From an uncultured Opitutia bacterium (lineage in GTDB: Bacteria > Verrucomicrobiota > Verrucomicrobiia > Opitutales > Opitutaceae): a stretch of 50,306 nucleotides of DNA. This document shows, piece by piece, positions 17,772 to 21,253 of the stretch. The translations under genes and the position numbers were made by a program. The DNA lies in NCBI GenBank assembly GCA_903861185.1, contig CAIOTK010000147.1, positions 1 through 50,306 of the forward strand. The letters run 5' to 3'. The notes beneath the pieces are model-generated. The model did no database searches. It was not told where the DNA came from and worked only from the letters and a program-made list of their open reading frames with translations. Within the stretch, counting starts at the first letter, position 1. Each line of letters starts with the position of its first letter.

Positions 17772-18560
17772 TCAGAACGAGACCGAGTAGCCGACCGAAG
17801 CCACCCAGCGGCCGACGGCGAGGGTGTTGATCGCCTTCGGCGTGTTGCCCTGCTTCAGGAAGGCGTCGCGGCCCTCGGTATACGCCACACCCAAAATGAC
17901 CTTCGACTCCTTGCTCACTTGGACCGGCAAGGAAGCGCCGAGCAGCCAGTAGTCACCCCAGGACTTCACCGCGGGCGAGGTGCCGTTGGCCGCGTCCTTG
18001 AGCAGGAACGTGCCCAGCTGCGCCGTGAGGGCGAGCTCGGTGCCCAGATCCTTCAGCGCCACCGCGTAGGCGGCCGTGACCTCATAGGTCGCCCCACGCA
18101 GCGTCACGTCGTAGTACACCTTAGGCGTGAATTTGATGCCCTCGACGGTGTAGTTCACGGCCACGCTGGGCTCGAAGGTCGACTTGTAGAAGCCGGCGGC
18201 CTTGTCCGCCTTCGGGTAGGTATAGAGAGTCGCTCCGGGGACAATCGAGAGGTCCTTGCCGAGCGCCATCGTGTAGGAACCGTAGAGATCCAGTTCCGGA
18301 TCCGAGCTGCCCGGGACCTGATCATCGATCACGAAGTTGCCCCAGACACCGGCGGTGAAGTCGCCGGCCGCCGCCTCAATGGTCGGCTGGAAGCCGCCGG
18401 CATTGAGCCGCTGGCCGCGGAACATATACTGAGTCACGAGGGTGCCGGTAGCGGTGATCGCAACCGCCGGGGCGGCAGCGGCGGGGGCGGCCGGAGCCTG
18501 GCCGAACGCAGGCAGGGCAACGGCGGAGCCGAGGAGAACAAGGAGGAGTTTGTGGTTCAT
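17772..18560 (-). CDS. TorF-family putative outer-membrane porin
   Basis: Signal peptide MNHKLLLVLLGSAVALPAFGQA; 'GTLVTQYMFRGQRLNAGGFQPTIEAAAGDFTAGVWGNF...ELDLYGSYTMAL'; aromatic C-terminus (SVGYSVSF). Confidence 0.75.
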   Translation of the reverse strand: MNHKLLLVLLGSAVALPAFGQAPAAPAAAAPAVAITATGTLVTQYMFRGQRLNAGGFQPTIEAAAGDFTAGVWGNFVIDDQVPGSSDPELDLYGSYTMALGKDLSIVPGATLYTYPKADKAAGFYKSTFEPSVAVNYTVEGIKFTPKVYYDVTLRGATYEVTAAYAVALKDLGTELALTAQLGTFLLKDAANGTSPAVKSWGDYWLLGASLPVQVSKESKVILGVAYTEGRDAFLKQGNTPKAINTLAVGRWVASVGYSVSF

Positions 18561-18597
18561 GGTGGGAGGTTGGATTGAATCGAACGAGCCCACGTAA

Positions 18598-18612
18598 GCA
18601 GACTTCGGGCCA
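18598..18612 (-). promoter_or_regulatory. Candidate sigma-54 (RpoN) promoter for the TorF-like gene
   Basis: Minus-strand TGGCCC-GAAGT-CTGC; GG and GC dinucleotides separated by 10 nt; ~26-nt leader to the ATG at 18560. Confidence 0.5.
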
Positions 18613-18635
18613 ATTCCGAGCGCGACTGAAAGTTT

Positions 18636-18660
18636 TTCATACCAGATGAGCTCGTATGAA
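18636..18660. promoter_or_regulatory. Dyad TTCATAC-N11-GTATGAA, candidate enhancer-binding-protein site
   Basis: Perfect 7-bp inverted repeat with an 11-nt spacer between the two candidate sigma-54 promoters. Confidence 0.5.
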
Positions 18661-18762
18661 TAGAATGCGTACATCCCGGGCGCGCCCCAGAGGGAAACTT
18701 TTTTTCCAGAAGGCGCCGCTGACTTTTCCGCCGGACGGGGAGGCCCGGGAGCCCACTTTGGC

Positions 18763-18778
18763 TGGCACATGTGGTGCT
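18763..18778 (+). promoter_or_regulatory. Candidate sigma-54 (RpoN) promoter for the porin upstream of the urt operon
   Basis: TGGCAC-ATGTG-GTGCT; perfect TGGCAC -24 element, GC of the -12 element at correct spacing; ~50-nt leader to the ATG at 18841. Confidence 0.65.
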
Positions 18779-18840
18779 AAACGCTGGGACCGGTTCTGAA
18801 CCGGCCAACCAACCCGAAAGCAACCACGCAGCATCCACCA

Positions 18841-19808
18841 TGAACCTCCGTTCCCAGCTCGCCGCCAGCCTCGCGCTCGCGGCATCCGCCACCGCCTTTG
18901 GTGACATCAAAATCAACGACGCCCTCTCGGTCGGCGGCTACGCCGTCGGCTCCTATCGCACGATGGACCCCGCTCCAGGGCCCGCCACCGATCGGATGGA
19001 CCTCGATGCCGCCAAGACGCTCTTCACGACCTCCTTCAAGCCTGTCACCGGCGTGGTCAGCCTCTATTACCAGCCAGGCGCACCGAGCGACGTCACCATC
19101 CTCGACGCCTACGCCACGGTCGACGTGGGGGGAGGCTCGACCGTCACCGTGGGCAAGTTCTTGAGCTACCTCGGCTATGAGGCCTTCGACATCCCGAACA
19201 TGTCGCAGATTTCCTACGCCAACGGCGACTTCCTCGGGCCCATCCCCGGCTACCACAGCGGGGTGAAGTGGGACTACGCCGACAAGGACGTCGGCTTCGG
19301 CCTCGGCCTGCTCGACTCGGTCTACTCCGGTCCGAACTACCTCAAGGGCGACGGAGAACTGAAGCGTAACGCCGGCTTCGAGGGCTACTTCACCTACAAG
19401 GGCACGCCCGATCTTACCCTCTGGGCCGGCTTCGCCTACGACACCGAAGGCAATGTGCTCCACAAGAACGATGCCATCCTGACGCTGGACTTCTGGTTGA
19501 GCTACGCGCTCAGCAAGGAAGGCACGCTCGCGCTCGAGTACGCCCACAAGGACGGCGGCGCTGGCGACGAAGGTTACAACTGGCTCGTCTTCTACGGCCA
19601 CAAGTTCAGCGCCAAGACCTCGGCCGCCTTCCGCGTCAGCGGTGAGAAAATGAAGAACGGCGCCGGCTTCACCAAGTACACCGTCAGCCCGACCTGGGCC
19701 GTCAACGATGCCTTCGCCGTCCGGGCCGAGCTCTCCGCCTACGACTACTCGAAGCACAGCGCCGACCGCGCCCTCTTCTTCGGAGTGCAGACGCTGCTGA
19801 AGTTCTGA
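18841..19808 (+). CDS. Outer-membrane beta-barrel porin (OmpL-like / BBP2-type), probable urea/amide-associated porin
   Basis: Signal peptide MNLRSQLAASLALAASATAFG; 'DAYATVDVGGGSTVTVGKFLSYLGYEAFDIPNMSQISYANGDFLGPIPGYHSGVKWDY'; C-terminal F; located directly upstream of urtA. Confidence 0.7.
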
Positions 19809-19911: not shown

Positions 19912-21162
19912 ATGAAACTCAAATTCCTCCTCGCCTCCGGCGCGATCGCGCTAGGCCTCTCCAGCTCCGGGCTCCGGTCCGCCGAAACCGTGAAGGTGGG
20001 CGTGCTCCACTCGCTCTCCGGAACGATGGCGATCAGCGAAACTTCGCTCCGCGACATCCTCCTGTTCACCTTCGACGAGATCAATGCCCGCGGCGGTGTT
20101 TTGGGCCGCAAAATTGAGCCGGTCGTTGTGGACGGCGCCTCGAACTGGCCGCTCTTTGCCGAAAAGGCCAAGCAACTTCTCGAGCAGGATAAAGTGGCGG
20201 TCACCTTCGGCTGCTGGACCTCCGTCTCCCGGAAATCGGTCCTGCCCGTCTACGAGCGGAACAACGGCCTGCTCTTCTACCCCGTGCAGTATGAGGGCGA
20301 GGAGGAGTCCCAGAACGTGGCTTACACCGCCGAGGCGGTGAATCAGCAGGCGACCCCGGCCGTCGATTACTACCTGAAGGAGGGCAAGAAGAAGTTCTAC
20401 CTCCTCGGCTCCGACTACGTCTATCCCCAGACCACGAACCTAGTCCTCCTCGAGTACCTCCTCAGCAAGGGCGTTCCGCTGGCGAACATCGGGGGCGGCT
20501 TCCGGCGCGATGGCGCGGGCAAGATCATCTCCGCAGGAAAGTACACCCCGTTCGGCCACACCGACTACCAGCAGATTGTCGCGGAGATCAAACAGTTCGC
20601 CGCCTCGGGCGACGCCTGCGTCATCTCCACCCTGAATGGCGACACCAACGTGCCGTTCTTCAAGGAGTACGCCGCCTCCGGTCTGACCGCCGAGACGTGT
20701 CCCGTGGTGTCCTTCTCCATCTCGGAAGACGAGTTCCGCGGCCTGCCGGCGGATAAGTTGGTCGGCCAACTCGGCTGCTGGACCTACTTCCAGTCGCTGA
20801 ACACCCCCGCGAACAAGAAGTTCGTCGCTGACTTCCAAGCCTGGCTCAAGAAGAGCAGCGTACCCGGACTGGTGAAGGAGGGTCGCGTCACCTGCTCCCC
20901 GATGGTGCTGAGCTACGTGGGCGTCTACCTCTGGAAGGCCGCCGTCGAGAAGGCCGGCTCGTTCGAAGTCGACAAGGTGCGGGCAGCTTGGAAGTCGGGC
21001 CTCACTTTTGACGGTCCCGGCGGCAAGGTCACCACGCAGAAGAATATGCACCTGACCAAGAACGTCTACATCGGTGAGACGCGGGCGGACGGTCAGTTCA
21101 AGATCGTGAGCTCATTCGACCACGTTTACGGCGAGCCCTGGCTGAAGGGGAAGTTCAAGTAA
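19912..21162 (+). CDS. urtA: Urea ABC transporter substrate-binding protein
   Basis: '[66 protein letters not shown]...[15 protein letters not shown]'. Confidence 0.96.
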
Positions 21163-21189: not shown

Positions 21190-21220
21190 GGGCGGACGCC
21201 GATAACGTCCGCCCTTTTTT
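21190..21220 (+). terminator. Rho-independent terminator between urtA and urtB
   Basis: GGGCGGAC(G) (21190-21198) pairs with (C)GTCCGCCC (21206-21214) followed by TTTTTT. Confidence 0.85.
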
Positions 21221-21253
21221 CTGGCACGATTCCAGCATTCCCCCCGGCACTCG

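Follow-up and report, generated by a model that had tools for sequence, protein, structure and literature searches.

The 50,306 nucleotide stretch of DNA analyzed here, hereafter the window, contains a 279 bp intergenic region flanked by two divergently oriented genes for outer-membrane beta-barrel proteins. The leftward gene, gcw (17772..18560, minus strand, ATG at 18560), encodes a TorF-like / Gcw_chp outer-membrane protein that matches PF09694 (8.9e-10) and scores 43.3 bits to TIGR02001, just under the cut-off of 47.15. The rightward gene, bbp (18840..19808, plus strand, ATG at 18840), encodes a BBP2 (OmpL-like) porin (PF07642, 2.6e-12). It is followed on the same strand by urtA (19912..21162; PF13433, 4.5e-131), which encodes the substrate-binding protein of a urea ABC transporter and shows 81-98% identity in syntenic loci. 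The gene order arg - gcw <> bbp - urtABCDE - ureABC is recurrent across the genus and the family. Database records for the bbp porin, of which the nearest is 95% identical, are from metagenome assemblies of Opitutaceae, Opitutae, and Verrucomicrobia. A search of a plasmid collection gave no match.

The bbp-urt-ureABC block is missing beside gcw in L074, L075, L077, L078, L079, and L096 (also in L113, L114, L122, and L124). Where 20-kb stretches around these bbp-less loci were inspected, gcw faces a ureE-like gene, and L122 retains a short ureC-like tail before that gene. No match to ureF, ureG, or ureD was found beyond the ureE-like gene in the bbp-less loci of the genus.

Candidate sigma-54 promoters of gcw and bbp

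A sequence-only reading of this DNA had proposed divergent candidate sigma-54 promoters for two porins heading the urea locus. Its -24/-12 elements are exact on both strands, and the arrangement, with two outer-membrane beta-barrel genes before urt and ure, proves to be conserved in genus and family. The gcw promoter, TGGCCCGAAGTCTGCT, lies at 18612-18597 on the minus strand, and the bbp promoter, TGGCACATGTGGTGCT, at 18763-18778 on the plus strand. Each matches the sigma-54 consensus, with 10 nt between the -24 GG and the -12 GC, in a TGGCAC-N5-TTGCW-like context. Counted from the T that follows the -12 GC, the start codon is reached after 36 nt in gcw and 61 nt in bbp. Within the 50 kb window, TGGCNCN6TGCT is found at just these two sites, against an expectation of 0.41 occurrences; 6 of 100 shuffles reach two. 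In a sigma-54 matrix scan of 100,582 positions on both strands, the gcw and bbp sites rank as the top two, and the third-best site in the window, at 21222, belongs to the same locus. The weights of this matrix were hand-set after the published consensus; neither the pattern count nor the cross-locus alignments depend on them. A search of the gcw/bbp gap for a sigma-70-like promoter found none.

The gcw core, TTGGCC-N5-YTGCT, is kept in the window and all five close relatives (6/6). The DNA upstream is largely unrelated, because in four of the five bbp is absent and a ureE-like gene stands opposite gcw; the promoter thus persists in close relatives that have lost bbp-urt-ureABC. Across the family, 35 of 49 gcw loci have a site scoring 11 bits or more, compared to 4 of 49 on the wrong strand. 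About a quarter of the loci lack a strong gcw site, including L045 and L049, whose bbp site remains. For bbp, [TCG]GGCA-N7-TGCT is found 54-75 nt before the start in every one of 21 divergent loci examined, and in 11/11 loci from named records, which come partly from the same genomes as the 21. By the strict matrix only 14 of the 21 bbp sites score that high, since the first T is replaced by C or G in several of them. Seven of the 21 regions also score on the opposite strand, where the short gap holds the gcw promoter too. The loci are related to one another, and these counts must be viewed as a measure of conservation rather than as independent trials. From this conservation and from the site sequences, we conclude that the two divergent sigma-54 promoters are very probably real.

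A hairpin in the bbp 5' leader, CCGGTTC-T-GAACCGG (18790..18804, plus strand), has counterparts that are predicted for most relatives, at a mean z of about -1.7, and is G+C-rich in most loci despite differing sequence. The gcw 5' leaders (L080, L083, L086, L090, L053, L092, L091, and others) have a conserved stretch near CGATnTCnTTCATGCGA, at a near-fixed distance downstream of the -12 box, which often is predicted to fold into a hairpin whose loop contains TCATG, at a mean z of about -1.4.

RpoN, candidate activators, and a likely nitrogen link

A search of this genome for the RpoN DNA-binding domain gave no match; the domain was found in 54 of 57 genomes, a set that includes the present one. 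However, the DNA of the sister species' rpoN region matches the end of contig C159, which stops at 20440 inside an open frame with the RpoN activator-interacting (AID) and core-binding (CBD) domains. The gene is therefore present, with its DNA-binding domain beyond the contig end, and we rejected the absence of rpoN as an interpretation.

Domains of bacterial enhancer-binding proteins (bEBPs) are strong at five places in the genome and weaker or partial at a sixth. The best NtrC-like protein, encoded at L005:961-2448 (minus strand), scores 468.6 bits to the NtrC equivalog model, whose cut-off is 558.6; it has receiver and AAA+ domains, but HTH_8 was not detected. All three domains, receiver, AAA+, and HTH_8, are present in the proteins at L007, L008, and L009. 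None of the bEBPs found in this assembly, which is 93.9% complete, passes the NtrC cut-off.

Sigma-54 sites also precede nitrogen genes elsewhere in this genome. Its amtB, beside P-II genes, has the site TGGCACGGCGCGTGCT (14.7 bits), and its glutamine synthetase gene, glnA, has TGGCACGGAAGGTGCT (14.1 bits); a sigma-54-like site is found at many amtB genes of the genus. At L104 and L105 (G000:C71), two P-II genes flank amtB, and the sigma-54 site falls in the gap that separates amtB from the first of them. Within the urea locus itself, the interval between urtA and urtB (21190..21237, plus strand) holds a terminator hairpin, GGGCGGACG-N7-CGTCCGCCC-TTTTTT, and one base later a third candidate sigma-54 promoter, TGGCACGATTCCAGCA (21222-21237). 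Where other urtA loci extend far enough downstream, most show both the hairpin and the site; the comparison covered 13 other loci, with too little downstream sequence at L121 and an unclear arrangement at L115 and L116.

A search for an enhancer common to the urea locus, amtB, and glnA found none. The sigma-54 sites before amtB and glnA of this genome make nitrogen control of the urea locus likely, a conclusion that draws on gene function and shared promoter type. A nitrogen-responsive sigma-54 regulon comprising amtB, glnA, and the urea locus is plausible on the same grounds. The NtrC-type nitrogen control put forward by the sequence-only reading is thus likely as regards nitrogen, whereas its assignment to NtrC and to an inverted repeat is unproven.

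Candidate activator sites between the promoters

Two AT-rich blocks in the intergenic region are each identical at 16 of 17 positions in the sister species G007. The first, CTGAAAGTTTTTCATAC (18626..18642), includes the left arm of the inverted repeat discussed below and the best local match to a motif, TTCTnTGTCATA; the second, around GAAACTTTTTTTCC (18692..18708), is an alternative candidate for a regulator site. The activator site probably lies within these conserved blocks, in 18626-18669, a span that includes the inverted repeat, or in 18692-18708.

In de novo motif searches of inter-promoter segments, TTCTnTGTCATA was the best motif, with log-likelihoods of 59-94 compared to 24-55 for shuffles. 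Most loci that have the element place it 11-12 or 21-23 bp upstream of the bbp -24 box, about one or two helical turns; exceptions to this spacing are L085, L063, and L097. Across 27 genomes of the genus, TGTCATA together with a sigma-54 site gives four matches, three in the gcw/bbp gap and one upstream of gcw. These results speak for a locus-specific regulator that would bind the single element TTCTnTGTCATA near the bbp -24 box, such that the left arm in the window, GTTTTTCATAC, would be a diverged copy and the inverted repeat incidental or lineage-specific. We regard this as possible, but less likely than not. The match in the window is modest: at 10.1 bits it is the best in the intergenic region, but four sites in the window reach 10 bits and three unrelated places exceed it, and 120 bp separate it from the -24 box of bbp. 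Some loci (L080, L082, L084, L086) lack the element, a position so near the -24 box is unusual for a bEBP, and a TGTCATA-like sequence occurs also upstream of amtB in G006 and G008, so that the element may not be locus-specific.

The two -24 boxes are separated by 33 bp in seven members of the genus and by 44 bp in an eighth, and by 150 bp in the window and the sister species. This conserved promoter spacing is the most unusual feature of the locus. The TGTCA element falls at a different place in L085 (33 bp spacing) and L083 (44 bp spacing). A promoter pair set 33 bp apart might be governed by one TTCTnTGTCATA-bound activator, at one or two helical turns' distance from the -24 box of bbp, that would open both promoters in place of a distant NtrC enhancer; we judge this arrangement unlikely.

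The sequence-only reading had instead pointed to NtrC-type control, with the inverted repeat TTCATAC-N11-GTATGAA as an enhancer-binding site; in the full form of this model, an NtrC orthologue would bind the repeat as an enhancer common to both promoters. The perfect repeat is indeed present (18636-18660, spacer CAGATGAGCTC), and its position between the promoters, centered about 36 bp from the -24 box of gcw and 115 bp from that of bbp, suits such a role. In G007 the counterpart is TTCATGC-N11-ACATGAA, with six of seven pairs retained, including one compensatory change, and a spacer that has diverged to 3/11 identity; one pair is broken. Other orthologous inter-promoter regions lack the repeat. 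The window holds no second copy of the exact string (0.00 expected). When the 150 bp inter-promoter segment is shuffled, however, about 12% of the shuffles contain a repeat with any perfect 7-bp arms and a spacer of up to 20; the repeat alone is therefore not significant. Copies were sought near nitrogen genes as well: the repeat is unique in the whole assembled genome at up to two mismatches, is absent from amtB and glnA, and no shared operator was found upstream of either gene. As a genome-wide operator the repeat is therefore rejected, and as a general NtrC site it is not supported. Taken with the lack of a bEBP at the NtrC cut-off and of a detected HTH_8 in the best candidate, these observations leave the full NtrC model doubtful, and the repeat itself a weakly supported candidate enhancer.

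Other elements were considered and set aside. GCAC-N5-GTGC inside the bbp promoter, which resembles a pair of NtrC half-sites, is not kept in G007, and its spacing differs from that of the half-sites in the E. coli NtrC site. The sequence AAAAGTTTTTC near amtB in some relatives resembles the left AT-rich block, but comes from few independent loci. Motif searches with amtB and gcw-only loci added returned mainly A/T runs, some of them probably terminators, and were not used. As a separate observation, AAAGTTTTTC-like stretches upstream of amtB (L136, L137, L150, L144) and of gcw (L094) resemble the block at 18626-18642.

Short single motifs can arise by chance in GC-rich DNA, but it is highly improbable that the -24/-12 matches did so and that gcw and bbp use housekeeping promoters, given their positional conservation across dozens of loci despite diverged flanks, the rank of these sites as the best in the whole window, the lack of a sigma-70-like site, and the presence of rpoN.

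Proposed regulation and comparison with known systems

The explanation we favor as a whole, with a probability of roughly 0.8, is one of back-to-back sigma-54 promoters under a nitrogen-responsive bEBP that would coordinate the entry of urea. The leftward promoter would drive the gene for the TorF-like outer-membrane protein, the rightward promoter the BBP2 porin gene and urtA, and the third, after the terminator, urtB onward. RpoN polymerase would sit closed at the promoters of the locus, and a response-regulator bEBP, presumably active under nitrogen shortage, would open them, with the predicted outcome of a joint increase in entry through the outer membrane, import of urea, and urease.

Sigma-54 control of nitrogen scavenging is ordinary in kind, and as far as a limited literature search shows, its well-supported occurrence here is new for the Opitutaceae lineage; that search found no literature on Opitutus with sigma-54. 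In Proteobacteria, NtrC/RpoN-controlled scavenging genes include glnA, glnK-amtB, and genes for urea ABC transporters and porins, with BCAL3098 and BCAL3473 of Burkholderia cenocepacia among the examples (PMC10117139). The present locus is alike in having candidate sigma-54 promoters before a urea transporter and a porin, and its genome in having the same promoter type at the ammonium transporter and glutamine synthetase genes. Unlike those systems, it belongs to Verrucomicrobiota, has two different beta-barrel families served by back-to-back promoters, and has a separate sigma-54 promoter within the urt operon, and neither an NtrC orthologue nor an NtrC site was identified in it. The FmdC-type porin of comammox Nitrospira, which is associated with short-chain amides and urea (PMC11064514), is likewise an outer-membrane porin tied to urea uptake; the likeness drawn here is one of role. 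By these associations TorF-like and BBP2 proteins, both from poorly characterized outer-membrane families, may be tied to nitrogen or urea acquisition, and the conserved promoter spacing makes it possible to test concretely how close to a sigma-54 promoter an activator may be placed.

A survey of sigma-54 regulons across bacterial classes, Opitutia included, found control of urease mainly in alpha- and beta-Proteobacteria, and for Opitutia a regulon with only reduced nitrogen enrichment (PMC12316311). Against that reduced enrichment, the promoters described here are well supported and point to a plausible nitrogen regulon in Opitutaceae. Sigma-54 control of urease genes is common to the survey and to our proposal, and the present locus adds a conserved Opitutaceae case.
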